Assembly (NCBI GenBank): GCA_034401795.1
Contig: CM067369.1
Location: forward strand, 134,557,731-134,621,730
From: Chaetoderma sp. LZ-2023a
Lineage: Eukaryota; Mollusca; Caudofoveata; Chaetodermatida; Chaetodermatidae
Direction: 5' to 3'
Length of the DNA stretch: 64,000 bases
Below the pieces are notes generated by a model. It was not told the origin of the DNA. It saw only the letters and a list, made by a program, of their open reading frames with translations, and made no database searches. Both the position numbers and the translations under genes were made by a program. Of the stretch, positions 16,571 through 61,904 are shown one piece after another; position 1 is the stretch's first letter, and every line of letters starts with the position of its first letter.

Positions 16571-16598
16571 TTCCGGAGAAGACACAAATTTTTGACAT
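16571..16598 (-). repeat. Inverted copy of the 28-bp motif
   Basis: TTCCGGAGAAGACA then CAAATTTTTGACAT, the reverse complement of the motif with one change in the CTCT box. It lies about 300 bp upstream of the ORF start. Confidence 0.8.
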
Positions 16599-19055: not shown

Positions 19056-19140
19056 GATGATACAGTACTGTATGCAGTAATCTTCATCACTATGCTTATA
19101 CAAGTAGCCATGAATGTTGACAATACATGTATATTTTGTC

Positions 19141-20381: not shown

Positions 20382-20402
20382 ACCCTGATTGTGAAACAGC
20401 CC
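20382..20402. repeat. Right terminal inverted repeat of the unplaced transposon
   Basis: Ends TGTGAAACAGCCC, the inverse of the left tip, with ATAT immediately outside at 20403-20406. Confidence 0.75.
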
Positions 20403-20519
20403 ATATATACATCCTGAAAAGCTTATCCCTGCAAATCCTCGTGCAGTTTGAGAGAGAATTGGATGAAACTTGACAAGATGATTGTACATCACTAATAGAT
20501 GTCCCTGGTTTACACCAGT

Positions 20520-24372: not shown

Positions 24373-24402
24373 ATGGATCGATCAAGATCAAGAAAAACAT
24401 CG
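24373..24402 (+). CDS. Host gene exon 1 (start)
   Basis: ATG followed by nine codons (MDRSRSRKTS), then GTGAGT. An in-frame TGA directly precedes the ATG, and a likely 3' splice site (attactag) ends at 24368, so this exon probably has a few bases of 5' UTR and an untranslated exon upstream. The overlapping ATG at 24369 was not used because its frame meets TAG at the start of exon 2. Confidence 0.65.
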
Positions 24403-24803
24403 GTGAGTCTTCACATCTCTTGGTTTATAAATTTAATATTAGAATTATCTTGTAAAATTGTGTCATGTATATTAATTCATCTTGTCATATGCCCAGTATT
24501 TTGAGCTCACCGGGCCTGAAAGTCCATCCATTGCTTGTCGTCCATCAACTTTTGTTAAATAAAAACTCATACCCCTAGATGGCTTTGCAGATTTCAACCA
24601 AATTTGTGTGGAAGCAGTGCTCTACAATTCATTTTTAAGCCAGTACCACTCCCAGCACAATTCCGATCAGTATATTGTCTCAGTATGTTGTGTTTTCGAT
24701 TACCTAATCTCGTCAGAAAATGATTGTAGATTGGTTGAAACCTGTTTACAAGCATGACTAGTGTTTACTACATCATCTACTACTACTACTACTGCTGCTG
24801 CTG

Positions 24804-24887
<84 letters not shown>

Positions 24888-27800
24888 AATTATACTAGTT
24901 ATGTCTCTGAATCAGTACTGATCCGAGTGGGCTAGTACTGACTGAAGAAAAATTCCACCAGTATGGTACTGGCTGTCTGCAAAATTAACTAGAGCTTTGC
25001 GCGCCGTAAAGATAGGTGGAAGGGTACTATGCTGGAAGACAGAACAGCTGTACAAAATGTTTGTTTGTGTCAGAAAAGGAAAAGATAATGGTGTGCCATA
25101 ATATCCATTCTTTAAGGAAAGTGAGGTATACATGTAATTAATCGACTTGTGTCTAATATAGGAGGGTAGGACTGTTCCAATACTAATCTATAGTCAAGTT
25201 TGCAGTGATTTATGGTTGTACCTGTGCATTGTACGTACACCACATTGCTGAATATAAAGCTAATTCAGATTAATTACAGTTTAATATTCGATTGTTTCTA
25301 ACATTGTTTTTCAGGTTAGGATCACTGCACAAGATGTAGTGAAATATTCAGAGGTTGGAGAGGATCTACCAGGGTTTCTCTCCAAAATGGTTTATCGACG
25401 AATTGGTGAGTCTGATCAAAACATTTTAACGCTTTGAATCCTGAACTCCCAAAATCACAGCTTTAACACAATAAGGTTTAAAGATGTTGAATATTCTGAA
25501 ATTAGTTTGATAGGAGCCGCTCTCAGTGTCTGAAATTAGTTTCAAAATATTTAACAGGATATATCTCTGAAAATAAATAAATAAATCGTTAGCTCACATT
25601 GCCTGAATCTTAATGGACTCATTCCCAAACCTGGACACATACTTCCCTAGATAACAATCTAGCAATATAACTGTGACTTAGGGAACAGTGACTTAGGGTC
25701 AAAAGGTCAAAGGCACTTGCAACACCGTAGAGTTAAACTTCATGGTTTCTTTGCTAACTGCCATTAAGATAAGCTTGACATAGTCACTTACATGTGTACT
25801 ACTTTTAATGGGTGTAAAGAAAATTTCAGTTTTTTCTTTTATGTCAGAGAAGACATCCATTTGCAGACCAAGATGATTATTAGTCCCCTACCGGTAGACT
25901 GGAGGGGACTATAGGTTTACCCGCCGTCTGTCCGTCTTGGCGGCGGCGGCGTTGTCGTCCGTAAAGGTAATTATGGTTACGGTTTTTCAAAATCATGATT
26001 TCTCAGCAGTGGTCCATCAGATCTCAATGAAACTTTACAGAATTGTTCTATGGCTCTATGCAATACAGGGAAGCAATATACAGCATTAAATTTTGAAATC
26101 AAATTGCTATATTTTTTATGGCTTTTGGACGTAGAACTTTTTCAGGTAATTATGGTTAAGGTTTTTTAAAATCATGATTTATCAGCAATGGTCCATCAGA
26201 TCTCAATGCAACGTTACAGAATTGTTCTATGCAATATAGGGAAGCAATATAAGCATTACGTTAAGAAATTTTGAAATCAAATTGCTGTATTTTTTATGGC
26301 TTTTGGACTTAGAACCTTTTCAGGTAATTATAGTTAAGGTGTTTTAAAATCATGATTTATCATCAATGGTCCATCAGACCTCAATGAAACTTTACAGAAT
26401 TGTTATATGCAGAATTACTTTAAGAAATTTTGAAATCAAATTGCTGTATGTTGCAATCTGCGTGACAACAGATTTCACTTGGGGATATTTGTACTCTTTC
26501 CAGTTTTGGACAGTTTTTTCAGGTATTTTTGCTTAAGGAAGTTTGAGTTTCTACTTGTTTCATTAATTTTTGTCGAATTTATGGCCCCTTACAAGAAAAT
26601 GCGTCTTAACCGGTAGGGGACATGTATTGCAACGCAATACTTACAGAATGCTTGTTTTTTTAAATTTATCACTGGAATGACTGTCTCGATTATCGAACCA
26701 GTCATTCCAGTGATGAATTTTCATAAATAATCCTCTTGGTCTGCAAATGAACATTTATCAAGACCACTGCAAAGGCCATTTTTGTCCAGCTTGACCACTA
26801 TTAAATGGTTGAGATATCAAATTGTTACTAGTCCACTGGGCTGGCCAATCACAAATGTTAGTAGCCCTGGTCAATTTCTACTAGCCTCAGGCTAGTGCTA
26901 ATTTCAACTGATAATTATGTCTTGAAATGTGTTAAAAAGCGCCGTCTCATGAGTCGTGGGATGCGGTGGCAAAATTTACGAAAAAATTGAAAATGCACAT
27001 GCAACTAATGGTAGCCCAACACCATTAATTCAAAGGTTGTCAGTTGTTGATATAGTGTATGCGGGGGTTCTCTGTGACAAACATTGTTTTCTAGTTCTCT
27101 GTTGGTGTTTTTGTAGGCCGCGGAGTATTCACCATAAAACCCTTTAACAAAGGCGATGTCCTCCTGGAATACAGGGGAATGACAAAAAATGAGCAGCAAC
27201 CAGAAGCAAATGACGATTATGTCCTAGAAATAGTGTCCGGGAGAAAAAAAGTCTGGTAGGTGCATTTTCTCCATTCGTTTAGGCTTAAACTTGGGATAGC
27301 TCACCATTTTATGAATTGAATTCCTAACCAGTAGTATTCTCTGGCATGCTTATTACCACATAATTTTTGGCTGCTGGTAAACAGTTCAGGAAATCGTCGT
27401 GTCCCTTAATTAATGAGTTAGTTCATTCGTTCGTTCATTTGTTAGTCATAAACCAGTGATTTCAGTTATTCCAGTCTAGTTTTGCCATTTGTGAACGGAC
27501 TCGAACCAAATTCGGTAGGTGGACACCACCACATATGTTACCACCCATATAAGAACTAGGTTATTGCAACCTAGTTTTGGGAAAATATAGGTCAAAGTTC
27601 AATTTTCATATTTAAACAATTAGTAAATGGTCGGGCTAGCCACAGCTACCGAGATCGATCTAGCTTGTTTGGCAAGTCTGTGTTTGACAATGTCAGTGAA
27701 GGTTACCTGAGGTCATGTACCATTGGTGAATGGCACAAGACTGATATCCAATAATTGCACTATTGGTCAATGGGCCAGGACTAGAGCTGGGCGGTCTGAC

Positions 27801-36800: not shown

Positions 36801-39800
36801 GGGGGTATATAGCATTTGCTTTGTCCGTCCGTTCGTCCGTCTGTCCATCCGCTTGGATAACTATAGCTATTCTGGAGCGACCTTAACCAAACTTGGGTTA
36901 GAGGTTGGGTTTTATGGTCCAAAGAGCCCTATCGATGTTGGCGTCAATCGGTGCAAAGAGCCCTATCGATGTTGGCGTCAATCGGTCAAAGGTCAAGGTC
37001 ACTGTGACAATTAATGCAATTATTTGGCCATTCCGGATGATAACTAGAGTTCTACTGAAGCGATCTCTACCATACTTGGGTAGAAGGACGTGCTCGGTAT
37101 TCCGAAGAGCCCTATAGATTTTAGCGTCAATCGGTCAATGGTCAAGGTCGCTGTGACCCAATTAATGCAATTATTCGGCCATTCCGGATGATAACTAGAG
37201 TTCTACTGAAGGGATCTCTATCATACTTGGGTAGAAGGACCTGCTCGGTATTCTGATGAGCCCTATCGATTTTGGTGTCAATCGATCAAAGGTCAAGGTC
37301 ACAGGGCGGTCACCGTTTCCCAATTAATGCAATTAGTCGGCCATTCCGGATGATAACTAGAGTTTTACTGAAGGGATCTCTACGATACTTGGGTAGGAGG
37401 ACTTGCTCAGTATTCCGAAGAGCCCTATCAATTTTGTCGTCAGTCGGTCAAAGGTCAAGGTCGCAGCGAGGTCACTGTGACCCAATTAATGCGATTATTC
37501 GGTCATTCCGATACTGCGATCCACAATGGGAATGGGGGGGGGGGGCATAGATTTCAGCAATCTTCGATTGTCTTCCTTGTTTTATGTTTAATTTCGTTAA
37601 AATAAAGAACAATGAATCCCATCTCCCTGAATGCTGATGTTAATCAGCGTAATTAGTGAATTAGTTTCTCATTTGTCATGGGTGTACTGTAATTATGAAC
37701 AATTCATGACTTGTTTTAACAATGTTGTTTATATTATATTTTAGGATAGATGCAACAGAGGATGATAATTCTCTTGGTAAGAAATTAATTTGCTATTTAA
37801 ATTCAAAAGCATATGAGCATGTGCAGCTTAAAATATTTGCCTGGTGATTAAGTGAGACAACCTCCATGCAATCTAAATAAATGTCACATTGTCTCTTATC
37901 GTAAGGCACTACATGAATGCCATTTGGTATGCAGTGAATGGTTATACATGTACCAACCATATTCTGATTGCCAAATTATTCCACGTAATACATGGCTGAG
38001 TGGTAGATGGGATGAGAAAGGTGTATTTGTAGGTACAATGTAGATTGATTCGCAATGTTGAAGGTGTTTATCAGCACAACTAGTCGCTCCCCGTGAAAAC
38101 TGAAGGTGCTATATGTACATGTAGCTTTGCACTCTGTCTGTCCCTCCGTCAGTCCATTTGTCTATCACCCCGCTTTCAGTTTTACGAACTTTTTTCATTA
38201 AGCATTAAGATATTGAATTGATTTTTGGTATATGTAGTTGTCTATTAGGTCTACGGTCAGCAATCTTTAGATGCAGCTTTATCACTACATCTACATCAAT
38301 AGTACAATTCATTTATATTATTCTGACCTGTGATCATATGACTTAGTGCAATACAGGTTAAGGTTTATTTTGAGCTCTGCTTTCCGGAACATAACTTTAG
38401 AAAGCATTTGTGAATCAGCATCAAATGTGGTATGCCGATTTCTTGGGACAATGCCTCACTTGGGATTACGTAGCAGCGGAATCCATCCCTATCTGACAGA
38501 GTTACCTCCCCTGAAAAGCTTAGTTTAGTTTCCAATTTTGGTTATATTTTGCGATTAGTTCTGATAAGGCTAAGCTATTAGGCATATGCGTTCTTTATGC
38601 ATAGCTTTATTGCTACATCTTTGTCAATGCTACTATCCATTCATATCATTCTAACCTGTCATTTCCGCATAGGGACTCCGGTTTCCAGAACATTGACTGC
38701 ACTTGGAATTGCATTATATAAGTATAAAAATGTATAATGGTAAAATTAATATTTGCCTTTCTGCAAATATTAGTAATGTCGAATTATGCCTAACAGGCGA
38801 GCTTCAAAAATTTGCCGGAAATTGTCAAATTGCTTTAAAACACTACTCCTCATTAACCGTTTGCCGATTTTAACCAAATCTGCCTGAAAGTACCCTATGG
38901 TGATAGGCTCTAGAAACAGCATTTGGAATTTTGATCCGTCAATTTTTTTGGGTGGAAATCTTAGATTGTTATTAAAAATTTGCCGGAAATTGTCAAATCC
39001 GTACTTCTTAGTATCTTAACGGATTTGGACCTAATGTTGCTGGAAAGATCCTATGGTGATATGCTCTAGAACTTCCATTTAGAATTTTGATACATTAATT
39101 TTGGGGGTGAAAATCTTAGATTTTTATTAAAAATTTGCTGGAAATGGTCAAATTGCTACAAGGCCAATGTTCCAGGTGAGCGTCACAGGCCCTTGGACCT
39201 CTTGTTCTATGTATATAAACTTTTCATATCAGGAAATCTATTCTGTCCACATAGGGTATATTCCTCAACAGATCGTATTCTTCATTACTGATATGTCAAC
39301 TCTTGATGTGTATTTATCTGCTGCCAATTCACTTTTCCCTAAAGTGGGAGGGGGGGGGGGTTGATGGGAATAGGCTGATGGCTCTTGTTATTTATTAGTC
39401 CCCTACAGGTAAACGTCGTCATCCGTAAGGGTAATTTTGGTTAAAGTTTTTAAAAATCATGGGGCGGGGGTGGTTGCTGTGCAAAAATAATTTAATCAGT
39501 GATAATCTTTCTAAACCCATAGGATTCGGGATTATAAGCTTAAGTAATCTTCAAATATTGGTGAATTCGTTATTAAACTGCTGAAAATGGCTTCTCAGAT
39601 GGTCAAATTTTTGGTCCGTTCCTCATTCTCCCCCCCCCCCCCCCCAAAAAAAAATCAAAATCGTTCCGGCGCCCTTATAGTATAGGGAAGCAATATACAT
39701 ACAGCATTAGTTTAACAAATTTTGAAATCAAATTGCTGTATTTTTTAATGGTTTTTGGACTTTTTGTTGAAATTTGTTCATGTATTTTGGATTAAAGTTT

Positions 39801-48800: not shown

Positions 48801-51800
48801 TCCTACATTGGAATCTGTCAGTGTGCCTTCAATGAGTAAGAATGATCCAATCACAGATGTTATTAACCCAGGCATACACATCACTCCAATAGCAAGAAGC
48901 CAGTACACCATCCAGTCTAAAGTTGCTAGAATGAAAAAGTGAGATAGGGTTTTCAATAAATCTTCTGCATGTTTTTATTGTGACAATCTTTACACAAACA
49001 TGAGTAGGCATTACACCAGTGCTCATAAAAAGGAAGCCGAAGTAGCTAGCATCTTAGCATTAAAAGAGGTTGGTACCACTGCCCAACGTACAATAACTAA
49101 GGAATGGGAGCTCCTTAGAAACGAAGGCAACCATAAGCACAACCTCGAAGTGATATCGTCCAAATCAGGGGAATTGCTACTGGTTCGCAGAGGTCATCAT
49201 GATGGAAAGACATTCTGTGCTGATGATTATACACCTTGTCCTCATTGTAAGGGCTGGTACCTGAGCTCGGTACCGGCGATGTATGTACACGTCAACTATC
49301 GCTGTATTGCACGGGGGAAAGATAAGCTAAGCTCATCATCTATAATGAGGAAATCTATGATTCAACGATTGTCAAATAATGAAAGTCATCTAGACATTGA
49401 AGTATTCAGTACAATGAGAAAAGATTCTGTAAGAGAAATTGCAAAGAAAGATTGCATTATCCGTAACATAGGTGAATTTTACCTTTCGAAACATAGCAGG
49501 AATCGACTAAAGCGTAAGGAGTTTGCAAGGAAGTATATGCGTGAAGCTGCAGTACTTCTTAAGAATGCATGAACAATTGATTCGACCGAAGAGGACTTTA
49601 GTTTCTATATTCGGCCGCAAAAATTTCACGTTCTTCAACAGGCGGCAATATTGCAAGCTGGGAGCAATGATAATGTACCACACCCAAGTACACTGAAAAA
49701 TATTGGGTACTGCATCAAACATTTATGTGAGACAAAATTAGAGATGGCAATAACTGTGCAAGATAATTGCATGAAGTCTGAGGCAAAGGATTGTTTGCGA
49801 TTATATCATAAAAAATGGAAATTACTAGCAATATCAGGGCAGCAACAACTTGAAGAAAGAAGTTATAACCGAGCAGTAGTTCTACGAACTTGTTCTGAAC
49901 TGCAGACAATCACAAATTATATAAAAGACAAACTGGGCTCTGTAAAACAAAGCGGAACTATTGCAAATGCTCTTTATAAAGACATGGTGGAATTGATTCA
50001 GGCTAGACTACTTCTGTTTAACGCCCGCCGACCAGGGGAACTGGAAGCCCTCAGGTATTAAATTATCTGGTACTTTATCTTGTTTACTTTAGTTGTCTGT
50101 CTGTCATGTGATAAATTTCGACCGTACCAACAGGCTGACTGATTGACAGACCAGACCGACTGACAGGTGTTACAACCGAATAGCTCCAGGTGATAATACA
50201 AGAAATTATTTTGGGCACCCGTTTTAGTGCCTGTCAAAAATTATATAATTTCAAAACGGGTCTGCAAGTTTACATTTATTCAGACTAAATGAGTGAGAAA
50301 ATGTAACAGACCACTACATGTACACTTGATAATAAACTGGCTATATAGATCTGCTAAAATTTCATGCTTTTAATAGATTTATCATCATTTTAGTAATTTA
50401 GGACAATCTTTTATCTATTTTGGGTGCCCAAATTCAAGGCACCCAAAGTAGGTGTACAGTAGTCGAAAATGAGCTGTATTAGCCCCATAGCTCTGAAGGT
50501 GACAAATTGGGCCAAGAATGTACGTACATGTATCATCTCTCTCTGTTTCCTACAGAACTTAAATGAAATTTCTGAAGGGCTCCAACTCAGTACTTAGCTT
50601 ATTTATAATCAAATTAACATTTTTGGAACTGCATGGTATTTGGTGCATATATATGAATCGTCATACTTGATTTGGTGTAAAGAGGTCAAAATGTAAACAT
50701 ATTGTCTGGCTAAATATTTTACCACTGGTACCAATGTGAAAACTGACCTTTGGCCTATATTTCTCAGAAATTATGCCAGACTGACACAGTTTTTGTCTCG
50801 CCTGCGAAGCAGAAGTGAGACATAGGTATTACTATTTCCGTCGGCGTCATCATATTTGTATTTATGGTTACGGTTTTTAAATCAATTTATTTTTCAAGAA
50901 TGGCTCATCCAATTTCAATGAAACTTTACAGGAGTGTTCTACCCCATGCAGGGATGCAATCCACAACATTACAAATTAAAATTTTGGGAATTTTGCCCTG
51001 TTTTTCTCATGTTTTGGACTTAGAATTTTCTCCATGTTTTTTGGGTTAAAGTTTTTAGTTTGCCTTGTAACTCAAGAATGGTCAGTCATATTTCAATGAA
51101 ACTTTACAGAATCTGTCTACACCATGCACAGATGCAATCTACATCATTACTAATTTAAATTTTTGGGAATTTTGCCTACATTGTACATTTTTCATGGTTT
51201 TGGACTTTGAATTTTTTCCTTGTTTTTTTGGTTAAAGTTTTTAGTTTGCCTTGCAACTCAAGAATGGTCAGTCATATTTCAATGAAACTTTACAGAATCT
51301 GTCTACCCCATGCACAGATGCAATCTACATCATTACTAATTTAAATTTTGGGAATTTTGCCTACATTTTGCATGGTTTTGGACTTTGAATTTTTTCCTTG
51401 TTTTTGGGTTAAAGTTTTTAGTTTGCCTTGTAACTCAAGAATAGTCAGCCAGATTTCAATGAAACTTTACAGGATTATTCTATGCCAAGCACATTTGCAA
51501 GCTGCATCATTACTAATTTAAATGTATGGAATTTTGCCTACTTTTTTCACGGTTTTGGACTTGGATTTTTTAAATGTATTTTCTATATGCGTATATATTC
51601 ACTGTTACCTTATTAATTATTTGATTCTGAATACTTTTAATTTGTTTCATGGTTTTGGTCTTCGACTATTTTTGTGCAGTTTTGTTTCAGGCATGTCAAG
51701 TTTAATGCGAACCATTTGTCTATCCATAAGACTTGCACAGGCTTGTCATGCTTGCACTTCAGGTACAGTAAGCCTATAGACTTTACGGTTCAGTTTTGAG

Positions 51801-54800
51801 GCTATATCAGTATGGCTTCCTCGTGGGCTAATGCCATATGGGTATTTTGGTATGGCAAGATGAGACTGTGTCAGGTGGTTAAGCATAAATTGTCTCGCCT
51901 ACATAGCAAGAGGCAATACATAGGGAACACTATGTCCATAAGTCTAAATATTTGAATGCATTTCAATGGACTCAAATTGAAAAGTATTAGTATAAGGTAA
52001 GAAAAGTTGCCCATTAGAGAACGTCCAGGACAGGCGAGACATTGTGTGCTTCAGCCTTCTTGTTATAAAGGCTTACCGTATGCCCAAAGGTACTCATTTG
52101 CCAAGTTAGAGGCCAACAGCTCTTAATATAAGGCATATCAATAAATTAATGGATGCTCCACATGGACACTCATGAAACTATGGCCCGGACAACCCCTAAA
52201 GGGCAAATCCATGGACAGATGGATGAGTGGCCGGATGGATTGAACTTCTCGTTAATATGTATCCATATACATATATACAAAAAAATTTGACTTATGATCT
52301 GAGATCAGGCGAGATGTTTAATTCTGTGGAATTCTCCTCCTTGCAAACTGTTGTAATACCGGTGTTTGACAATAAAAAAAAATCAAATTAAGCTATCATC
52401 ACCTGGTTATTCAAGAACGGAATTACATCTAGCAGGTAGTAATTACTGTATCTATCTTCTCTCTTTGTGCAGATTAGAAGAGTTTAACAAAAGAGGAAAC
52501 AATGAAATTCTCTCTGAAACTCTTATGGGCACTATGACAGAACTGGAAAAGAAACTGTTGGAGGTACACCAGGTTGTGACCGTAAGAGGCAAAAGAGGAC
52601 ATCCCGTCCCTATACTGATACCGAGGGATTGTTTGCATGTAATGATGCTCCTCGCTGATTCTAAGATCAGGACTACTGCCGGAATCAAACAGAGTAGTGA
52701 CTACATTTTTGCTAACACAGGTTAGATTTATATTTTTAAAGGTGTTTGATAAAGACGATTTTGAATTAAACTTTCCGGAAATGGCCTTCAATTAGGCGTA
52801 AGATCTATATATATATATATATATACAGATGCTTTTCATTAAGGTAACACAAGAAATCTGGAATTTTTAGCTTGCCTTTGTGAAGTAAAATGAGCTTATG
52901 CGATACCTTGAGCGTATACCGGCGGCGGCGGCCAATTTTTGTTAAGATTTGCATTTAGCTCTACATATAGATTTATATTTCAGGATTGGGTTTTCATATT
53001 TCTGCCAAACTTATGGTTGCCTATACAAGTGGCAAGCAGCGCAATGATGCAGAGGTTACTAGGTCAAAAATCAAGGTCATTTTGACCGTGGCACAATACT
53101 TTTTCATGGTTAAGTTTTGAGGTCAGCTCTACATCTTGGTTTATATTTTAGGATTGGGTTTTCATATTGCTGCCAAACTTATGGTTGCCTAAACCAGTGG
53201 CATGCAGAGCAATCATGCAGGGGTCACTAGGTCAAGACTCAAATGGCAAGGTCATTTTGACCTTGATACAGGACTTTTCAAGGTTAGTTTTTAGCTCGCC
53301 TGATCAGCGATCAGAAGAGCTTATGCGATAACGGGCGCGTCGTCCGGCAGCGGCGTTGGCGTCCAATTTTGGTTAAGTTTTGCGTTTAGCTCAGCTATGG
53401 CAATCCTATCAGGTATAGAGCCACCAAACTTGATATACAGCCTTATTACTAGATATATATCAAATTCTGAAGATAGGTCATAGTTACTCAGATAATACTT
53501 TAATACTACATGTACATCTAAATAAATCACTGAAAGCGAAAATAGATATTCGGTGCATATAAAAAACATACTATTGTATTAGTCTCTCAGTATTTATGAT
53601 GGTTGCCCTGTGTGCCATCAACATGCAAAGTTTCGTTGCCCTTTTGAAATTCTGGTTGCCCAGGGCAAATGGCCATTTCTATCCCTGCCTTAAACACTGG
53701 GCGTCTTAAAATTTGGATTTCTGACTTGGATTGCAGAGTTGAAAGTGTCACTCGGTCATACAATAACTGGGGTTACTGAGTTAGTAAAAGACTGTGCATT
53801 GGAAATAATTTTGCAACAGCTTATATAACAAAATTATTTTAATAATGTACCCTAATCTGTCTTCTACAGGCTCCGTAAAACACATCTTGTGCAGAAAGAA
53901 ATTAAGCAATCTACCCAATTTACAAAAGTGTATTCACATAAGAGTGTGTTATTTTAGAGAGCAGTCACCAGATAAGTGGCTGGCCAGACTATGTAGGCTT
54001 GAATGATTGGCCAATCTGCCAATTGAAAGCGAGTTTGATATACATTGTTATGGCCATTTAATATGTTTAAAAGATGTTTGAGCTTTAGAATAAATAGAAA
54101 ATAACCAGATAATATCTGATGCCATATATCATTAAAGGGCAATTCCGGGATGATGAAAAGTGTGCTTTGTTTGACAGATGATCACATCTTTAATGAAATT
54201 ACGGCAGAATAAAAGCCAGATTGAAATAGCGTAACCAAAAATCGCTAGATAAAGTCTGTAAAATTTACGATTTTAGGCACATCTGGGCGCTGCCATTTTA
54301 TTGTGCCTAGTGACGTACGCGCCGCACCACAACTAGCGATGATGAGGCACGCGGCCTATATCTGAACGCTGGAATATATTTTAATGAAGCATATGTATAT
54401 GAGAATAGCAACGGAACCGCTTAAGCGATTTCAACAATTCTTGGACCGGCAAATACTTCGGGATATAATGATACCATGGATGTTAAAATCGGACAAGGGG
54501 TTCAAAAGCTTACACAAGTAAAAGTAGTCATCTAAGATAAGATTTTAAAACTGGCATGTGGTTAAAGCTGAGAGAACTGGCTATTTACCAGGCTAATTAT
54601 AATTTTGCTCCCATAAATATTGCCAGAGATATACTTAAATGAATGAACATTTTGACAAAGAATCAGAATTTTCCTCGAGTCACCAACATTGCGTCGCAAG
54701 CTGTAGCAATTTTTCTAATTAAGATATGTTGATGAAACCTCATTTATAAGACAACATTATAACGCATGGACATGGGAAATTCTGTTATTGTAGCTCTAAT

Positions 54801-57800
54801 ATTTATTTTGGTGTGCTGATGGATAGCGCGCAAATTAAAATTTTTGTTTGAAATTTTTACTGACTACCGGTATATAGCTGTCCAGCGGCGTGTATCTTTT
54901 GAACCCCTAGGGTGATTCTGACATGCACAGCATCGGACAATTCCTCGAATTTACATATAGGCCTATGTACCAGAATTATTATAATCGGTTCAGCGGTTCC
55001 GACAATATTATTATGTTGTTTCAGAATATTTATTTACCCTTTGCGATGCAACCGCGATATAGCAGACCAAGGGAAGACTATTTTTGAAAATTAACCACTG
55101 GAATGACTGATGTGAAAACCGGGCCAGTCATTTTTGTGGTAGATTTACAAAACTAATTTCTTGGTTTGCAAATTGACTAATTTTTATTAATGACGAAATT
55201 GAGAAAGATTGTAACACGTGTCTAAAATCTACCCTCTGCCAAAAGGCGATTCTGCTGAAGGATGATTGTTTGATAGATGTGGTGGAGGCTTTGAATGACA
55301 ATCATCACCGACATTACGTCAAACAAATGGCTCAAATTTGATTAACTGAACAACTGCTTTAAATTTTGTTTAACACGATCTACCGTAGTATTAACGTTAA
55401 CAGCGTTTCTTTAAAACGCCTATTCGTGTGATCAGTTGTCTTAGTAGCATGTGCGTTATCGGCCACTTCCATGCATAAGAATATTTACTGTGCAGGCCTC
55501 CAGCTCGGCAGAGATTGCGTTGGTGCGGCGATAACGTCACAATCTTGTGAAATCTCAATTTCGTTGCGACAAAATAGCCGCCCCCAGGAGACGAAATAAT
55601 CCCATGTTTACGATGGTATAATTCGTCTTATATGTTTATTGTAATTATTTAACATCCAATATGTTCGTCATAATATTCTTTCAAATAAAGTACGCTTTTA
55701 CCCATCCCGGAATTGTCCTTTAATATGCTATGGGTGTGTATAAATATTAAATGTGAGTTTTGGGAGGCCACCCAATACAAAAATGTATATAAATATATAT
55801 GTATAAATTTTGCTTTTTAGGGGATGGTGTTTTTCGTGCCGTACAATCATTAAGAAATGTCCTCGCACAATGCAACGCAACGTTTGATACAAGACATATA
55901 AAAGCCACAGCGCTAAGAAAATACTTAGCCACGAACTGCCAGGTATATATCCATATTTATCCCCACACTTTTCGAAGAGAAGGTGGGGATTATCGCATCC
56001 AACCTGTGTGTGCGTGTTCGTGCATGCAGCATCCGTCCGTTTGTCTGTCTCCGCACCGAATCTGATTATAGCGCTTCTCATCCTACACCATTTCAGATAT
56101 AGAAACATGAAACTGGGAATCATTAGATCTATGGACAGGGATATGCATGACACTTCAAATTTTGGTCTGACCCACTCACCCCACCCCCATAGGTGCAGGG
56201 CCAAGGATGGGGAAGGGGTACCGATTTAGATTTCAAATTAGTTTTCCGAAGGTGATCATGTCGACATGATCAGACTCCAGGTCCAGAAAGTGACAAACAT
56301 TAATACATTTTACATCATCATATACTAAGCACCCTATACACTACTTTCCAGGTGAGTTGAACCGTTTTAGACAGATTTCATATCATTATTAGTGTATCAT
56401 ACACATTACTGCTGCAAATATAGAAGTCAATTGTTTATTGATTTAAAGATTTTATTGGCTGTGTATATTACTGTTTGATTAATGATAAATACTTAATATG
56501 TCATCTTTTCAGCTGATGAATCTGAATGACACAGAGCTCGACTGGGTTTTACGCCATTTAGGTCATTCCAAGGTCACGCATACGGGCAGTTATCGTTTGC
56601 CGAGTTCAACCATAGAAAGGACAAAGATTGCAAAATTGCTTGTTTTGCTGGAAAATGGACTCATAAGTAAAGCACAAGGATCCTCTTTGACCAACAGTGA
56701 GCTTGATGGTATGTGTATTACCGTATTCTTTTTAGTTCATTTCTGTATTTGAGAGATTCATAACCAGAATATTGATCGTCATCATGATCTTTATATATTT
56801 GCAATCCATGGCTGTGTTACATTCTTTTATAAACAAAAATATATATATGTCGCCTTGTCTGATAATAATTTCAAAAGTAATATTGTTTAAAAAAATCCAA
56901 ACAGTCAAAGGGTTGGTTGATTTTCAGCATGTCGATTATCCTTTGACCATCTGTCATCCCCCAACTTTTCTAGAATCACTTGGCTAATTTGGCAGAAAGT
57001 AGAGTATCTCGACATAGCAATCCAAAATGGTGGTGTTCCTCAAGAATTAGGCAAATGTTTAAGTTTTTCAACAGGCATTTATGTCATCAAGGACTTCTTT
57101 GATGTCAATAAAATTTCACAGATAATTAATCTACCATCATTGCATCCATTCTGCATTGCCATATTTTTATGAGGTTTGGATTATTTTTGGGTACGTGCAC
57201 CAAGAATTAGGTGAATGTTGAAGTTTTTCAGTTAACAGTTCAGTCATCAAGGACTTGAAAGATTTATTCTATGCCATCATTGTATTCAGTCTGAATCATA
57301 ATCAGGATGCCCTTAAAAATTGTTGGTTTCGGGTAACCCTATCAATCTAAAAAATCTACCAAAAAAATATTGGTTCAACATTTCGTAAAATTCATTGTTT
57401 ATCCCAATAAATTGCCAAAAGAAATTTCATTTGACCATGAAAACAAGGTATTTGACAAAATGTTTAACTGTAAAAATCAGAGATATGAATAAAAAAAAGA
57501 ATTTGCCTACCTACCTAACCAATTTCAGAGGTTGTTACCCAAAACCAACAGTATTTTAAAGATGACATCAAAATGTTTTTCAAATTTTTTCCATACTTTT
57601 TAGGAGTTTGGATTATTTCTGAGTGCATATATCAACAATTATTTGAATGATAATGCTTTTCAAAGGACTTAATTCATTAATGTCTTAACCTATGATATGC
57701 CACACAAAAGAACTCGGCATGCGGGATACGTCCCTCTAGTGTATAGGTTTTGTTAACCAATAGAAAATTTGGCAATTACCTGGTAAAATGTCAAATCTTG

Positions 57801-60800
57801 GTCATTAGCCTGCAAAACCTACATGTGCTCGTTTTGATGTGTGTAAAGGTTGTAACTCATAGCTGTTGAATAAGCTGAGCACTAACTACTAGGTGCTTGG
57901 CATTTAAAATACAGCTTCAGAAAAAAGATTACATTTGATCTAACTTATATAATTCATTGTAGCCATTGCCTCTTGTTTTCAGACATGATCCTGAAAACGA
58001 TTGAAATGGACTCGAGCTCTGCAGGTAATATCTTACATAGAATATTATAATGCATGTATTTAATTGAGTAGCATTTGACCGTTGTCAAGCCTGTAACAAT
58101 AGTGGAGCATACAGTACGGCTCAGAAATAACTTGACATGTTTCCAAAAGAAAAGAAAACATACTGTTGAATATTTTGGACATAATTTGATTGGAAGCCAT
58201 TGCTGCCTCAGGCAGCAGCAATGACTTCCAATCAAACTAAGTCCAAAATATTCAACAGAATATTTCTTAGATTGTTTTCAAAATTATCCACTTTGGAAAC
58301 ATTTAAACTTATTTCTGAACTGTACTGTAGCATGGCATAATGATCCAATTGACATGCATTGGCTGTGTCTGTCATCCATTCTGTATCTGTTCCAAAATGG
58401 TAAAATGTTTTACACTGGACACTCATCAAAGATTTATCAGATTTCAATAAACATGACAAAACTATATATTCATTCTATGTCAAGAGTTAGTTTGAAAATT
58501 ATTTTCTCTATGACAGAAAGTCAGAAAATTATTATCCAAACTACAAATTCCGTAACATTTTCGCAATCTCATAGAGCATTTAATTTGCATTAGTACAGCA
58601 GCTAAGAACCAAATTTCATAAGAATTGTGCAATTTTTTTAACAAAAAAATGAAACTGCACACAAGTAGTTTGATGGATTTTGAAACCGAAATTGATTCTA
58701 TATAGATTTATGGGTACTGCGATGTCAAAATTGCCACTTTCGAAACACTCGGATAAATGGTTTGGTGACTATCTTGGATTATTTTCTGCCAAAATCTCCC
58801 ATAGTAAAGCAATAGGAAATTTAAAATGTTTTCTGGAGAACAAATGGCCAGATTTCACACACATTGGCTGCAGTGTTTAATATGGCATCCATATTTCTGT
58901 GGTCCAGGCAACTCCTTGCCTTGCAATCCAGGTGTCCCAAACAAGAATTTAGGGGTCTCAATCGGCAATCTCCCATAGTTTAGCAATTGGAAAAATGTGT
59001 AATTTCGGCTTCTCGACAACTAGTCTACTGGGTCGATTTCAATTATATTTGGCAGGAAGCATCTTTAGGTGTAGAGACATGAATTTGTTCAAAGGAAGCC
59101 GATCGGCCAAAATCCAAGATGGACGTCGGCCGGCAAAATCCCCCATAGTAAAGCAATGGGGAAATTTAAAATGCCGTCTTCTCAAGAATCACTGGGCCGA
59201 CTTTAATTATATTGCAGGAGGCATCTTTAGCGCATATGGATCCAAGTTTGTTCAAGCCAAACTGATCGGCCAAAATCCAAGATAGCTGCCGAACGCTAAA
59301 ATCACCCATAGTAAAGCAATGGGAAATCTAAAATGTTTTATTCTCAAGAGCCACTGTCTGGATTTCAACCAAATTTGGCATCAAGCATCCTTGGGTGATA
59401 GGGATGCAAGTTTGTTCAAACGCAGCTGATTTGCCAAGATCCAAGATGGTCGCATTTTGGCATCCATATTGTAATTTTGTATTTGACAGATTTTCAAGCT
59501 GAAAATGTTTTTAGGTTTTGGATATGATCATATGCTCCTTTCGAAACTGTCGGTTAAATGGTTTGGCCGCACTCTTGTTCAAACAAATTTGATTGTTTAG
59601 TTTTGCCAATGGCCAATAATTCCAGGTAAACGATACAGGTCCCTTGGGCCTCTTGTATTATAAGGAACATGATCAGCTTAATCAAAGATTATTATTATTA
59701 TAACTCCAGGATGTTAGCCATGTTATAAGTATGCAAGTCAGCTGATGATCAGCTGTTTTAAAGAACCACTGTCGGATGGTGACCATTTTTTTTAACCCTA
59801 ATTTTGTTGAATATTTTGAAATTATTATGGCTGAAAGAGATTGCTGCCATCCAGTCATATTTAATTTCAAAATATTCAACAACTGTCCTGTTTGTCTGCC
59901 CTATAATTTAATTATTTATTAGCTGAAGGGTCAAGCGGCGTCTGTTAACGTTTGCTATAAATGACTCCTCAAGAACCGCTGGATGAATTTCGGGCACATC
60001 TGGCAAGAAGCATCATTGTATCATAGAGATCCAAGTTTGTTCAAACGAAGCCAGCAGGATTGGAAGCAGCACAACTGTAGAATATTTTGAGATTAATATG
60101 ACTGGAAGCCATTGCTGCCTTAGGCAGCAACAGTTTCCAGTCATATTAATCTTACGATATTCAACAGACTGTCCTTTACGTTGTAAAGAATTTATTATCT
60201 AGCCTGTGACGCAGAAACTTATATTTCAGGATTGGGTAATCCTATTGCAACTAAACTTGGATACATGGTTACCTATTACTTAATTATGGTTGCAATGTTA
60301 GGAAGCAGCATGAGGACAATGAGATCACAAGGTCGCAGATCAAGGTTCATGTTCAGACATTAGCTCGCCTGTTCAGCGAACAGAGCTCATGTGATACCTG
60401 GTGAGTCGACAGGCGGCGTTCGCGGCAGTGGCATCGTCGTCAACGTCCAATTTAGGTTAAGTTTTTTGTTTAGCTTTGCTAGGGCTTAACCATCATGCAT
60501 AAAGTCACATATATGTCAATAGTACAATTGATTTATAAGGGTATCACCTATATTTTCCACTCATTTCCGTTTAAATTTTGCATTTAGCTCTGTTATGACT
60601 AAACTATCAGACATAGAGCCGCCAAACTTCAAACAGCTTTATATATACATCAATAGTACAAGCGTTAACCTTTTGCAAATGACCTTCATATGTAGAATTA
60701 TATCAACAGATGAGCTCCTTGGTTGCAAACCACAATTATGGTTGCGTTTAGCAAAACCTCTCGTCTTATATTTCAGGATTGGTTAATCCTGTTGTAACTA

Positions 60801-61861
60801 AACTTGGATACATGGTTACCTTCAATGTTAGGTAGCAGCATGATGGCATTGAGGTCAGGATGTAAACGGTCAAGGTCATTGACAAAGAGGAGGCAGGCGA
60901 GATTTAATTTATCAGTATCTCACATTGAGAGGGTTAAGAGTATATTTCACTCCTCACTGACCATCAAAAATGTTTTGTTTGTGTGTGTTACTTTATTCAT
61001 ATATAATTTTTTTCCAAGATGATATATCAGATCAGAGTTATGATGGATCAAATGGGAATGCAGAAGATGGATTGAATGTGGATAATGACAGTGGACAAGA
61101 TAGTGGATCAGATTGGCATGATGATGATAATGATGATAGATCGGATACTTCAGTAGATGACGATGCCCGTTTTCAGAAAGGCAAGTATGAGCATGTCACC
61201 ATAAACAATTACCAGTCAAATTGTCCTCAAAAGGTGCCATGATGGCATTGAGGCCACTACATGTAACTCATAGGTATTGTCAAAGGTATTGGCATTGGTA
61301 CAGAACTTTCAGGATTATGTTTTCACTCAGTTGGCCTGAAGGGCCAATTACTATTATGTTGACTCTCTAATCACCACATGGCATTTATCAGTCTGTTATC
61401 CATCATAGTTGACTACAGGTAACAGTATTTAGGAATGAGTCAAGGTACACATTATGCGTAAAAAGTACATCTACTTTTGAGCAACTGTATTTGAATGTAA
61501 GCATAAGTATATATAATTGTCTCTAGCTGTGCTAATTATAATTCTACACAATACTGATAAATTCTTATAATTATTGCATATTTTAGAATAACATTTCTTG
61601 TTGTCGACTTGAGAAATATCATAAATGTATTGGTTTTTTTTTATTATAGTGCCTAAATTACAGAAATCACAAAGAAATTACCAAGCATGGAGTGATGATG
61701 CTATCAATGTGCTGCGCCGCGAGTTTAAAGTAGAGATAGATGATAATACATATCCAACTTTCGAGAAAATACGAAATGTTATTAGAAAGTATCCACTCTA
61801 TTTGCAGGGTAGGACTCCACCTCAAATCAAGGCTATATTATTACACCTCAGGAGAAAATAG
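24373..61861 (+). CDS. SET / tyrosine-recombinase-like / SANT chimeric host gene (whole gene span)
   Basis: Thirteen exons join in consistent phase to 1,154 codons plus TAG. Order: residues 1-40 basic start; 40-148 a compact KMT5A-like SET domain (histone-lysine methyltransferase fold, probably nuclear); about 160-440 eight 25-residue repeats; 467-485 a C2H2 finger and then a C2HC cluster; about 590-985 an alpha-helical and tyrosine-recombinase-like region with Arg, Lys, Arg, His and Tyr blocks in order; 1031-1084 Asp/Ser-rich acidic; 1085-1154 Myb/SANT-like. I recall the finger/recombinase/SANT part as a widespread uncharacterised animal family; fusion to SET is the unusual point. Two in-frame TGA codons (457 and 667) lie in the big exon, so it may be a pseudogene, a mutant allele or a sequencing error. 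Introns reach 10.5 kb and are full of transposons. Activity is not claimed. Confidence 0.8.
24403..25314 (+). other. Intron 1
   Basis: Holds a CTA/CTG trinucleotide tract (24777-24887). Otherwise nothing recognisable. Confidence 0.6.
24777..24887. repeat. (CTA)n microsatellite
   Basis: About 37 trinucleotides with a short CTG block near the left. Confidence 0.97.
25315..25405 (+). CDS. Host gene exon 2
   Basis: VRITAQDVVKYSEVGEDLPG then FLSKMVYRRI. Acceptor tttttcag, donor GTGAGT, ends in phase 1. It is the lead-in to the SET domain. Confidence 0.8.
25850..26800. mobile_element. Hairpin MITE, GTCATTCCAG family, copy 3, split by another repeat
   Basis: The left arm phrase CATCCATTTGCAGACCAAG (25855) is separated by a 770-bp insert from the core palindrome (26670-26715, CACTGGAATGACTG / CCAGTCATTCCAGTG) and the right arm CTTGGTCTGCAAATGAACA. 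Confidence 0.75.
25883..26655 (+). repeat. Dispersed repeat with CCCCTACCGGTA tip, Helentron-like
   Basis: The 5' tip AGTCCCCTACCGGTAGACTG is answered, inverted, by ACCGGTAGGGGAC about 45 bp before the 3' end. A hairpin (GTATTGCAACGCAATAC) and then GAATGCTTGTT finish it. Internally there are three related blocks of about 170 bp (TCAATG.AACTTTACAGAATTG). It interrupts the GTCATTCCAG MITE. Confidence 0.7.
27117..27255 (+). CDS. Host gene exon 3: SET domain, N-terminal half
   Basis: GRGVFTIKPFNKGDVLLEY contains the Gly-rich cofactor loop (G-R-G-V-F) of SET domains and the following E-Y-x-G. The insert between this and the next motif is shorter than in KMT5A. Donor GTAGGT lies inside the Trp codon. 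Confidence 0.85.
27480..28491 (+). repeat. Degenerate tandem repeat, left part, with an inserted hAT-like fragment
   Basis: Phrases such as CAGGACCAATATCCAATATC and TGCCATTGGTCAATGGGCC recur. A segment at about 27785-28200 (AGCTGGGCGGTCTGACGG, then many CGGTACCG words) looks like part of a hAT-type element. The array continues at 35425 beyond DIRS copy B. Confidence 0.65.
28492..28665. repeat. Left inverted terminal repeat of DIRS copy B
   Basis: Begins TTCTCCTTCGATC and shares variants with its own right repeat (TCTGATACACAGC) that copy A lacks. Confidence 0.85.
35085..35424. repeat. Internal complementary region and right terminal repeat of DIRS copy B
   Basis: AGTAACAGAATGGTGAGT and its inverse bound the complementary region at 35086-35177. 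The terminal repeat follows and ends AAATTTCCTGCA at 35424, as predicted by the complementary region. Confidence 0.85.
35425..36160 (+). repeat. Degenerate tandem repeat, right part
   Basis: Continuation of the array broken by DIRS copy B: GGACCAATATC..ATATCTGTGCCATTGG and AAGGTTACCTGAGGTCAT phrases, about 100-bp period, strongly diverged. Confidence 0.7.
36160..36645 (+). repeat. ~36-bp degenerate tandem repeat
   Basis: About 13 units around TTGATAATTAACCCTTTTAA with TGCTGAATGCCAC. Period varies from 33 to 40 bp. Confidence 0.85.
36778..37552 (+). repeat. Dispersed repeat with four ~160-bp tandem cores
   Basis: The left tip ATGCCCCCCATATAG is answered by a G-rich tip ending GGGGGGGCATAG. 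Internal units repeat AGAGCCCTATCGAT...GTCAATCGGTCAA and GGCCATTCCGGATGATAAC. Tandem cores between inverted tips fit the bivalve pearl-type organisation. Confidence 0.7.
37745..37776 (+). CDS. Host gene exon 4: 32-nt SET exon
   Basis: Completes Trp and encodes IDATEDDNSL, matching the C-[IV]-D-A-T-x-x-x-x-x-L-G block of KMT5A. The 10.5-kb intron before it holds DIRS copy B. Confidence 0.82.
38090..39206 (+). repeat. Dispersed repeat, Helentron-like 3' end
   Basis: Starts near CAACTAGTCGCTCCCCGTG and has diverged internal blocks around AAATTTGCCGGAAATTGTC. It ends CCAGGTGAGCGTCACAGGC then CCTTGGACCTCTTGTT. Confidence 0.55.
39397..40090 (+). repeat. Dispersed repeat with CCCCTACMGGTA tip, second copy
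   Basis: Tip AGTCCCCTACAGGTAAACG at the left; ACCGGTAGGGGACATG then GAATGCTTGTT at the right. Same family as 25883-26655. It ends 19 bp before exon 5, so the splice acceptor lies at its edge. Confidence 0.7.
40110..40264 (+). CDS. Host gene exon 5: SET domain, catalytic half
   Basis: RLINDSTNFNCR occupies the place of the SET R-x-I-N-H-S motif, with Asp in place of His. ASKDLAAGTELRYNYGG then keeps the E-L-x-Y-x-Y core, including the Tyr expected in the active site. PYPWRTE closes the domain. Ends phase 0 at a GT. Confidence 0.85.
40873..41645. mobile_element. Non-autonomous TIR element, ~770 bp
   Basis: Left end TATATTGGGTGGTGCAAAAA and right end, inverted, TATATCGGGTGGCCCAAAAA. Similarity continues to TCAAAGTTGAA on both sides. 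No ORF. TA-rich flanks are compatible with Tc1/mariner but not decisive. Confidence 0.65.
41646..43838. other. Remainder of intron 5, repeat-derived
   Basis: 41785-42250 begins like a dispersed repeat (CCTCGGCTGACTTCTCAGTC, then AGCTGAGCTATAGCG). From 42267 TAGGGATGGGTGATAATGAC and CGGTATATCGTCAT resemble a hAT-type end, with related CGGTATTGACGGTAA words near 43640 but no clean matching right tip. No host exon is supported. Confidence 0.4.
43839..43851 (+). CDS. Candidate 13-nt microexon of the host gene
   Basis: CCTGATTATCTTG sits between a good pyrimidine-rich acceptor (ttttccaactttaacag) and a GTGAGT donor. Exon 5 ends in phase 0 and exon 7 needs phase 1; 13 nt supplies exactly this and reads PDYL then Asp. 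Inferred from phase and splice signals only. Confidence 0.45.
44250..45415 (+). repeat. Dispersed repeat, AGCTCACCTGG tip
   Basis: Left tip TTAGCTCACCTGGTCCGAAG with GGCCAAGTGAGCTTATGC. A hairpin ATCAGTGTAGCACTGAT followed by TTCTTGTT near 45390-45414 ends one such repeat. Between them lies AT-rich sequence with no supported gene. Confidence 0.5.
45570..46620 (+). repeat. 40-bp minisatellite with 80-bp higher-order units
   Basis: About 26 units built on GTGAGGTCTATGTATACAGT and CTGTCTAGGTGAGATCTCTA. From about 46021 the units alternate between two types (ATACAATCTGTCTAGG and ATACAGTCTGTCTGCG), so the real period is 80 bp. Confidence 0.95.
46621..48031. other. End of intron 6, repeat-derived
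   Basis: 46980-47235 is a run of degenerate GGTCA-rich phrases (GTCAAGGTCATTTGG, GGGTCATTTAAGGTCATC). 47480-47966 is another dispersed repeat that ends AGGTGAGCGATACAGGCC then CTTTGGGCCTCTTGTT and carries a hairpin insertion. Confidence 0.5.
47816..47923. mobile_element. 108-bp hairpin insertion
   Basis: TTTATGTGACACTGTTAAAA and its near-perfect inverse TTTTAACAGTGTCACATAAA flank inner arms TTTGACATCTCAATACACAA / TTGTGTATTGAGATGTCAAA around an 8-10 bp loop. It sits inside the 3' end of a dispersed repeat. Confidence 0.75.
48032..50054 (+). CDS. Host gene large exon: repeats, zinc fingers, recombinase N-terminal part
   Basis: 2,023 nt in one frame. It opens DCEEGGPKEHTNEVMEVDD and runs into eight copies of a 25-residue repeat (SIADIGQSIASHLPTLESV). 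A C2H2 finger follows (C467, C470, H480, H485), then the C2HC pattern CPHC...H-x4-C. A helical region follows, and finally FNARRPGELEAL, which matches the first-Arg block of tyrosine recombinases. In-frame TGA codons lie at 48940-48942 and 49570-49572. At the first, relatives as I recall them read K-W-D where this copy has K-stop-D, suggesting TGG to TGA. The second could be a CGA to TGA change. Coding sequence continues in frame after both. Confidence 0.82.
48118..48840 (+). repeat. 75-bp coding tandem repeat in the host gene
   Basis: Seven contiguous units of about 75 bp and one separated unit encode the 25-residue repeat. ADIGQ and ADVGQ units alternate. A larger unit (GPKEHTNEVMEVDD to CDSDS) is also duplicated, at about 48045 and 48685, so the array grew in at least two steps. 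Confidence 0.9.
50055..52472 (+). other. Intron 7
   Basis: 50055-50790 shows nothing clear. 50794-52072 is a dispersed repeat (listed separately). 52073-52470 shows nothing clear. Confidence 0.6.
50794..52072 (+). repeat. Dispersed repeat, TGTCTCGCCTG tip, tandem cores
   Basis: The left tip TGTCTCGCCTGCGAAGCAG is answered inverted by CAGGCGAGACA at 52031-52041, about 30 bp before a TTCTTGTTATAA end. Four internal units of about 180 bp share TTTCAATGAAACTTTACAG and GGTTAAAGTTTTTAGTTTGC. Confidence 0.75.
52473..52720 (+). CDS. Host gene exon 8: recombinase-like, beta region
   Basis: Continues LEEFNKRGNNEIL. TVRGKRGHPVPILIPRD contains the Lys-bearing beta-hairpin expected in tyrosine recombinases, and YIFANTG corresponds to the strand just before the catalytic H/R helix. 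Acceptor tttgtgcag, donor GTTAGA, ends phase 1. Confidence 0.85.
52721..54131. other. Intron 8, left part
   Basis: A short (TA)n at 52808-52827. Two dispersed-repeat tips at 52867 (TTAGCTTGCCTTTGTGAAG) and 53291 (TTAGCTCGCCTGATCAGCG). Tandem phrases (GGATTGGGTTTTCATATT) lie at 52983 and 53153. No exon supported. Confidence 0.5.
54136..55719. mobile_element. TTAA-flanked non-autonomous element (piggyBac-like)
   Basis: The tips AGGGCAATTCCGGGATG (left) and AGGACAATTCCGGGATG (right, read inward) are 17 bp with one mismatch, flanked on both sides by TTAA (54132-54135 and 55720-55723). TTAA duplication is the hallmark of piggyBac, although the first bases are not the usual CC. No transposase. The right tip lies 100 bp before exon 9. 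Confidence 0.7.
55075..55190. mobile_element. Hairpin MITE, GTCATTCCAG family, copy 4
   Basis: CCACTGGAATGACTG and GCCAGTCATTTTTGTGG as arms, then TTCTTGGTTTGCAAATTGAC. Nested in the TTAA-flanked element. Confidence 0.65.
55821..55942 (+). CDS. Host gene exon 9: recombinase-like, H/R box
   Basis: RHIKATALRKYLATNCQ aligns with the H-x-x-R box of tyrosine recombinases. The Arg is kept (LRKY), but the position three before it is Thr rather than His. Acceptor tgctttttag, donor GTATAT. Confidence 0.85.
55955..56512 (+). repeat. Dispersed repeat in intron 9, same tip as 10411
   Basis: Hairpin tip ATCCCCACACTTTTCGAAG with AGAAGGTGGGGAT and a following GTGTGTGCGTG run. The internal phrase AGGTGATCATGTC matches 10800. 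The right end is not clear. Confidence 0.55.
56513..56708 (+). CDS. Host gene exon 10: recombinase-like, H and Tyr boxes
   Basis: WVLRHLGHSKVTHTGSYRLP carries the L-G-H-S motif and the Tyr (SYRLP) in the positions of the second His and the nucleophile. IERTKIAKLLVLLENGLI follows. Acceptor tcttttcag, donor GTATGT, ends phase 1. Confidence 0.87.
56709..57982. other. Intron 10
   Basis: Two or three diverged units at 57010-57660 share CAAGAATTAGG.GAATGTT.AAGTTTTTCA and TCATCAAGGACTT. No tips recognised and no exon supported. Confidence 0.5.
57983..58024 (+). CDS. Host gene exon 11: 42-nt linker
   Basis: DMILKTIEMDSSSAG. Acceptor cttgttttcag, donor GTAATA. Phase fits both neighbours. Confidence 0.7.
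58112..58327. mobile_element. Tc1/mariner-type MITE with TA TSD
   Basis: The left tip CAGTACGGCTCAGAAATAA is matched by CAGTACAGTTCAGAAATAA from the right, and both continue to TGTTTCCAAA. TA flanks lie at 58110-58111 and 58328-58329. A second hairpin element is nested inside (58163-58258). Confidence 0.8.
58163..58258. mobile_element. Hairpin MITE, CTGTTGAATATTTTG family, copy 1
   Basis: Arms CTGTTGAATATTTTGGAC ... TTTGATTGGAAG ... CATTGCTGC and their inverse around CTCAG. Nested inside the TA-flanked MITE; two relatives lie within 2 kb. Confidence 0.85.
58665..59656 (+). repeat. Dispersed repeat with four ~170-bp tandem cores
   Basis: Units share AAAATC.CCCATAGTAAAGC and GGGAAATTTAAAATG. 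Ends CCAGGTAAACGATACAGGTC then CCTTGGGCCTCTTG. Confidence 0.65.
59802..59884. mobile_element. Hairpin MITE, CTGTTGAATATTTTG family, copy 2
   Basis: GTTGAATATTTTGAAATTA and its inverse TTTCAAAATATTCAAC around a diverged TTGCTGCC core. Followed by ACTGTCCTG. Confidence 0.8.
60078..60173. mobile_element. Hairpin MITE, CTGTTGAATATTTTG family, copy 3
   Basis: CTGTAGAATATTTTGAGATT ... CATTGCTGCCTTAGGCAGCA ... inverse arm ending TATTCAACAG. Followed by ACTGTCC, as in copy 2. Confidence 0.85.
60190..61018. repeat. End of intron 11, dispersed repeat fragments
   Basis: Tip TTAGCTCGCCTGTTCAGCG at 60359 with a later inverted GGCAGGCGAGA at 60893. Internal phrase TTCAGGATTGG.TAATCC.. occurs twice (60226 and 60773). 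No exon supported. Confidence 0.5.
61019..61180 (+). CDS. Host gene exon 12: acidic segment
   Basis: Very rich in Asp, Ser and Asn (DSGSDWHDDDNDDRSD). Ends CAGAAAG followed by GCAAGT. A GC donor at 61181 gives the phase needed by exon 13, while the GT four bases later would run into a stop. Confidence 0.75.
61650..61861 (+). CDS. Host gene exon 13: Myb/SANT-like domain and stop
   Basis: NYQAWSDDAINVLRREF, then YPTFEKIRNVIRKYP and RTPPQIKAILLHLRRK before TAG. Trp-led helix, second helix, and an R-T-P-x-Q-I-K helix are the layout of Myb/SANT-like DNA- or chromatin-binding domains. Acceptor ttattatag. No AATAAA is seen in the 45 bp before the minisatellite. Confidence 0.8.
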
Positions 61862-61904
61862 CCAAAAATTTAAAGTGCCTTTATGACAAGTGAACCATTC
61901 AAGG

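Follow-up and report, generated by a model that had tools for sequence, protein, structure and literature searches.

Does the locus studied here encode one protein in which a histone-methyltransferase domain has been joined to a tyrosine recombinase? The window, i.e. the whole stretch of DNA that was analysed (64,000 nucleotides, positions 134,557,731-134,621,730 of contig 11 in a genome of 2.44 Gb), had been predicted to contain thirteen exons forming a single frame, with a KMT5A-like SET domain first, a tyrosine-recombinase-like domain next and a Myb/SANT-like tail last. The answer that we favour, and to which we give about an even chance of being right, is that the window holds a decayed, recent duplicate of an old family that combines SET, zinc-finger and recombinase parts, and that in this family the recombinase aims the SET domain at DNA.

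EXON ORGANIZATION OF THE WINDOW

The eight sequence motifs quoted in the original prediction were all located on the plus strand, in the order claimed (Table 1). With splice signals sought around these motifs, we obtained 12 exons rather than thirteen, which run from 24373 to 61861 and total 3452 nt. As judged from the open frames, 10 of the 11 exon junctions are in phase; the compatibility of splice phases that had been announced holds for these ten and fails at the junction between exons 5 and 6. Exons 7-12 all display splice signals, and their open frames are mutually compatible. Exon 1 may be internal, because an AG lies immediately 5' to it. The zinc-finger-like motifs of exon 6 were judged by eye, Pfam giving only an E-value of 0.29 for them.

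Table 1. Exons, motifs and repeats of the SET-recombinase locus (window coordinates)
Feature	Position	Strand	Remarks
Exon 1	24373..24402	+	ATG in frame with exon 2; donor cg/gtgagt
Exon 2, SET part begins (..DLPGFLSKMVYRRI)	25315..25405	+	Splice signals, open frame
Motif GRGVF	27116 (start)	+	
Exon 3, SET (GRGVF..EYRG..)	27117..27255	+	
Exon 4, SET (IDATEDDNSLG)	37745..37776	+	
Motif IDAT	37746 (start)	+	
Exon 5, SET catalytic end (RLINDS..ELRYNYGG..PWRTE)	40110..40264	+	Ends in phase 0
Motif ELRYNYGG	40217 (start)	+	
Exon 6, repeat linker, zinc-finger-like motifs, helical region, first recombinase Arg (ARRPGE)	48032..50054	+	
75-nt repeats of the exon 6 linker	48121-48652		
Motif ARRPGELEAL	50023 (start)	+	
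Exon 7, recombinase Lys (RGKRG)	52473..52720	+	
Motif RGKRGHP	52585 (start)	+	
Exon 8, recombinase box II Arg (TALRK)	55821..55942	+	
Motif TALRKYLAT	55907 (start)	+	
Exon 9, recombinase His and Tyr (LGHS..SYRLP)	56513..56708	+	
Motif LGHS	56558 (start)	+	
Motif SYRLP	56588 (start)	+	
Exon 10	57983..58024	+	Splice signals, open frame
Exon 11, acidic linker	61019..61180	+	GC donor
Exon 12, C-terminal tail	61650..61861	+	

THE SET PART IS KMT5A-LIKE

KMT5A/SETD8 is the H4K20 monomethyltransferase. The SET part of the window matches the Pfam SET model (1.6e-12), and its best phmmer match is KMT5A/SETD8 (4.6e-14), which also accounts for the top 14 of its 35 matches to solved structures, in line with the KMT5A-like character attributed to it. 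In the window copy, the motif that reads NHS in KMT5A has become NDS (RLINDS, alongside LRYNYG), an Asp standing in place of the His, and a member of the family located on C15 retains the catalytic motifs (RMINHS and TYDYG). The genome also possesses a separate, ordinary KMT5A gene with an NHS motif (C12:55.14-55.15 Mb), whose exons are 67 and 58% identical to a human fragment. Although KMT5A/SETD8 proteins provide the best solved relatives of the window SET domain, they carry their own SET domain at the C-terminus, according to the main text of PMC10368294, and the window copy departs from them further by the Asp just mentioned and by its zinc-finger-like and recombinase parts.

A DIVERGENT TYROSINE-RECOMBINASE-LIKE DOMAIN

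Tyrosine recombinases are recognized by an R..K..HxxR..H/W..Y signature carried within one domain. In the pattern of the present family, R, K, R, H and Y are kept in that order. The Pfam Phage_integrase model scored 18.4 bits against the window (E 0.002) and 18.6 bits against the catalytic part alone, below the cut-off of 27.1; a divergent member (L056) gave 13.7 bits over the same region, also below the cut-off, and a Pfam recombinase match was absent from nine other members scanned, some of which are fragments devoid of the catalytic part. No DUF3504 match was obtained to E 1 or E 10, with a Pfam collection that presumably includes this model.

A profile-profile comparison was made as well, in which a profile of eight family members, the spliced window domain included, was compared with XerD and phage integrases. 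The hhalign score was 37.1 (P 1.8e-4, probability 48%), the alignment being in register over the Lys, LRK, GH and Tyr positions. As controls, the maximum score reached in 100 column shuffles was 22.2 (none of the 100 attained 37.1) and the reversed profile scored 10.0. The window domain alone scored 38.1, and the family without the window 33.4. When the eight-member profile was run against 177,635 PDB sequences, the sole match up to E 10 was a XerC-like tyrosine recombinase (E 0.13). A profile made from a longer alignment (A1) returned no recombinase from the PDB up to E 1, its matches being limited to two zinc-finger chains, both weak (E 0.1 and 0.64). Taken with the shuffled controls, the hhalign score and the XerC-like match support the recombinase-like domain that had been predicted.

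The box II Arg, the GH pair and the Tyr are among the columns invariant in the eight aligned members. By contrast with XerC/XerD and phage integrases, with which it shares the Lys, LR, GH and Tyr in register, the family is eukaryotic, intron-bearing and SET-linked, and the His of the HxxR motif is replaced (Thr in seven of the eight aligned members, Asn in the other). A viral or phage origin was considered and rejected: no relative was found in IMG/VR (two pattern-based queries) or in phages. PHROGs yielded one weak match of unknown function (E 0.062).

The third predicted part, a Myb/SANT-like tail, found no Pfam match at E<=1, and its NCBIfam matches were irrelevant; a SANT-like identity is a guess. 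The tail encoded by exon 12 was found in six copies in the genome, including that of the window, which are 96-100% identical. Among the profiles that had been put forward for checking the protein, SET was thus matched, whereas Phage_integrase stayed under its cut-off and neither DUF3504 nor Myb/SANT gave a match.

THE WINDOW COPY IS BROKEN

The single frame of 1,154 codons does not exist in the window: exon 6 contains two in-frame TGA codons (48940-48942 and 49570-49572), and the junction between exons 5 and 6 is out of phase. With these two stops and one phase gap, the claim that the window copy encodes the fusion protein is not supported; at most, this copy would make a truncated product. 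Both TGA positions are sense codons in all four other close copies. Recoding, e.g. insertion of selenocysteine, was rejected because both stops are replaced by sense codons in these four copies and because the window contains no Rfam match at gathering thresholds.

Exon 6 is damaged in all five close copies examined, including that of the window. Of the other four, one has a stop and one a frame-shifting deletion, while the same paired small indels occur in two, where they scramble a short stretch that contains stops; these last two may be near-identical duplicates of each other. The window locus is pseudogene-like and recently duplicated.

The sole out-of-phase junction falls exactly at the border between the SET and recombinase parts. 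Since exon 5 ends in phase 0 whereas exon 6 requires one left-over base, joining the two takes an extra exon within the 40.3-48.0 kb interval, with a length of 1 mod 3. An exon of 10 nt (without stop codon) or 13 nt (with stop codon) would reach the 1,154 codons. Within the interval, rough scanning for splice sites produced seven candidate linking exons, one of them of 13 nt; compared by eye with the three candidates at a divergent locus on C12, none was alike. A comparison of the window and C12 gaps, translated and at the DNA level, returned matches resembling dispersed repeats, and no linking exon was retained from it.

THE SET AND RECOMBINASE PARTS ARE REPEATEDLY LINKED IN THE GENOME

Whatever the state of the window copy, the SET-recombinase association that had been predicted recurs in the genome. 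Among the matches listed, 13 of 52 SET clusters are followed on the same strand by a recombinase at a distance of no more than 60 kb, to be compared with 0.03 expected from a formula that assumes uniform placement, and none of the 52 has a recombinase in another arrangement only (one of the 13, at C4:80.1 Mb, has a recombinase place upstream too). A smaller count made beforehand had given 10 linked clusters of 36. The 13 linked clusters are not independent: sequence identities divide them into about eight divergent lineages.

For this count, 62 rows of the SET list were kept and repeats merged, the host KMT5A gene and other long SET frames being included; seven rows covering just the N-terminal exon were dropped. 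The recombinase list comprises 51 places, one per locus, derived from at least 77 and at least 70 matching stretches; the place at C4:8062379 was omitted, and lies more than 60 kb from every listed SET place. Among the matches listed, 39 of the 52 SET clusters and 38 of the 51 recombinase places are without a partner within 60 kb, for which unrelated SET genes, decay and sub-threshold matches are possible reasons.

That SET exons merely happen to lie next to unrelated, transposon-derived exons, the two being joined on paper only, is very improbable because of this linkage (13 of 52 against 0.03 expected). The two stops, the phase gap and the reverse-transcriptase frame within intron 3 would suit such a mixture, but the order is repeated in divergent copies far above chance, and neither the splice signals of exons 7-12 nor the compatibility of their open frames fits it.

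A second explanation is that the window contains two adjacent genes, kept together by duplication or co-regulation, one for the SET protein (exons 1-5 and a terminal exon) and one for the recombinase (exons 6-12 and a first exon of its own). Its strength lies in the junction between exons 5 and 6, the only one out of phase, for which no convincing linking exon emerged and at which the exon 5 donor is weak in the window (0.9). Moreover, a divergent pair at C12:30.19 Mb repeats the same mismatch; because it recurs there, this branch would either require a linking exon or consist of two genes. On C15 (1.534-1.557 Mb), however, the junction is in phase: phase 0 is found both at the end of the SET exon and at the start of the zinc-finger/recombinase exon, which is located 20 kb downstream and contains a 643-codon stretch without stops. 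Such an agreement is expected by chance one time in three. The invariable presence of the recombinase downstream on the same strand in the 13 linked clusters, never solely elsewhere, also speaks against separate genes, as do the published gene models of Hydractinia and sea urchin, in which an N-terminal SET is followed by a long C-terminus similar between the two, provided that they belong to the same family (main text of PMC10368294). On balance we regard two separate genes as unlikely. The open-frame relatives present elsewhere in the genome suggest that the pairing of methyltransferase and recombinase is old and real.

CLOSE COPIES RESEMBLE SEGMENTAL DUPLICATES

The close copies of the window locus are large duplicates, introns included. 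Four comparisons of intron 5 gave identities of 98.5-99.4%, and the best intron 6 matches are at 96-98%, while exon 6 is 95-97% identical between close copies, i.e. not above the introns. The dN/dS ratio of exon 6 ranges from 0.36 to 1.08 in four comparisons, each resting on 7-10 substitutions, numbers too small for a verdict on selection.

Homology between close copies extends beyond the gene in both directions; other transposons interrupt it, and its limits vary from copy to copy. On the left, matches to the C1, C4 and C11 copies start at window position 9782, and on the right, matches to the C1 and small-contig copies reach about 62953, the stretch between these limits having been compared in part. 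The left limit is itself probably another insertion, because seven of the eight other copies remain alike beyond it, over the approximately 300 bp fetched (the C4 copy diverges partway). At C11:132.39 Mb the order differs, the left part lying about 44 kb away from the SET exons. Within the stretches compared, shared sharp element ends were found neither among the close copies nor in the C15 group. This copy pattern looks more like segmental duplication than like transposition of a unit with fixed ends.

These data bear on a third explanation, according to which the whole family is a mobile element, whether a DNA transposon of the Crypton kind or some larger unit, moved by its tyrosine recombinase. 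The captured KMT5A SET domain would then shield the element or tune its chromatin, and the window copy would be a dead element. The members are indeed numerous and dispersed, on at least 12 large contigs (at least 77 and at least 70 matching stretches). Most active-site residues are kept, unlike in domesticated DUF3504 proteins as depicted in the available text of PMC3212892, and KMT5A-like expansions are patchy across distant animals, as reported in the main text of PMC10368294. Against mobility stand the failure to find element ends in these stretches, the homology that overruns the gene to differing limits, and the fact that the similarity between the C15 and C11:139 Mb copies includes even the end of an upstream retroelement. 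Furthermore, introns are common to the copies, the location of most close copies on C1 and C11 is in keeping with segmental duplication, and the HxxR His is replaced. We consider the mobile-element explanation, the main rival, less probable than our own, though one to be taken seriously.

A PUTATIVE CHROMATIN WRITER AIMED BY A RECOMBINASE DOMAIN

We return to the reading of the window as a decayed duplicate of an old family. The domains, their order, their repeated linkage and the damage to the window copy are matters of observation. From the N- to the C-terminus, the normal product of the family would consist of a KMT5A-like SET domain, zinc-finger-like motifs and a divergent tyrosine-recombinase domain. 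In the members with open frames, the recombinase and zinc-finger-like parts would recognize specific sequences, probably in related mobile or repetitive DNA. At these places a histone lysine, which by analogy with KMT5A could be H4K20, would be methylated by the SET domain. The recombinase would thus act chiefly as the aiming part; strand exchange by it is possible but doubtful, because the His of the HxxR motif is replaced. If this is true, the family would be a naturally occurring chromatin writer that uses a recombinase domain for aiming.

No report of KMT5A or SETD8 together with a tyrosine recombinase was found in the open literature. Among fish, many proteins that bear a KMT5A-like or uncharacterised annotation presumably look similar.

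The pairing may be less unprecedented than that, as long KMT5A-like genes with an N-terminal SET have been published for Hydractinia and sea urchin (PMC10368294, main text). According to that text, Hydractinia has as many as 65 KMT5A-like genes, sea urchin 61 and Hydra 24, i.e. dozens per animal, some of which are expressed in embryos. The SET domain is mostly N-terminal in the Hydractinia genes and in the embryo-expressed urchin genes, and the C-termini of the longer genes are alike between Hydractinia and urchin (PMC10368294, main text). These genes resemble the present family in their expanded, divergent and mostly N-terminal KMT5A-like SET domain and in their patchy distribution in animals, but the likeness is one of published description, and the main text of PMC10368294 names no recombinase (the words recombinase and integrase are absent from it). 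Should the Hydractinia and urchin C-termini prove to be tyrosine recombinases too, these expansions could be traced to an origin in DNA that is mobile or has been domesticated, and would acquire a mode of action open to testing, namely the placing of a lysine mark at recombinase-recognized DNA.

Cryptons and domesticated DUF3504 genes have been described and offer another parallel, that of a tyrosine-recombinase domain joined to other domains in animal genes; according to the available text, however, DUF3504 proteins have lost the catalytic Tyr and the second Arg, both of which are kept here (PMC3212892). More tentatively, it is conceivable that a largely preserved recombinase carries its own KMT5A-type methyltransferase, marks the DNA that it recognizes, is or was mobile, and in this way explains the KMT5A-like expansions of hydrozoans, of sea urchin and of the present genome.

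OTHER ELEMENTS OF THE WINDOW AND OF RELATED LOCI

Outside the window, 14 zinc-finger/recombinase places occur within 0.7 Mb in the C16:0.63-1.35 Mb region, and none of the listed SET places lies near them. A retroelement upstream of the C15 member (L070 278-5285) is DIRS-like by eye, combining a reverse transcriptase and a tyrosine recombinase.

Within the window, a DNA transposon of about 4.9 kb occupies positions 15461-20406 and is bounded by terminal inverted repeats (GGGCTGTTTCACARTCA). It is missing from five other copies, in which its flanks meet, and stretches of it are found 99-100% identical at several places elsewhere; its 654-codon frame (16886-18850) has no Pfam or NCBIfam match. 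It is followed by an imperfect palindrome of 865 bp (20520-21384), 83% identical to its own reverse complement and common to five other copies. Two reverse-transcriptase frames (RVT_1) lie at 5435-6475 and 31699-32811, the latter being that of intron 3, and a frame on the minus strand (14016-14684) weakly matches HTH_32 (E 0.005) and is perhaps a transposase remnant. Finally, tandem arrays are present at 23001-24197 (39 bp units), 45610-46591 (40 bp) and 61904-62953 (25 bp), the 25-bp array coming after the last exon in other copies too.
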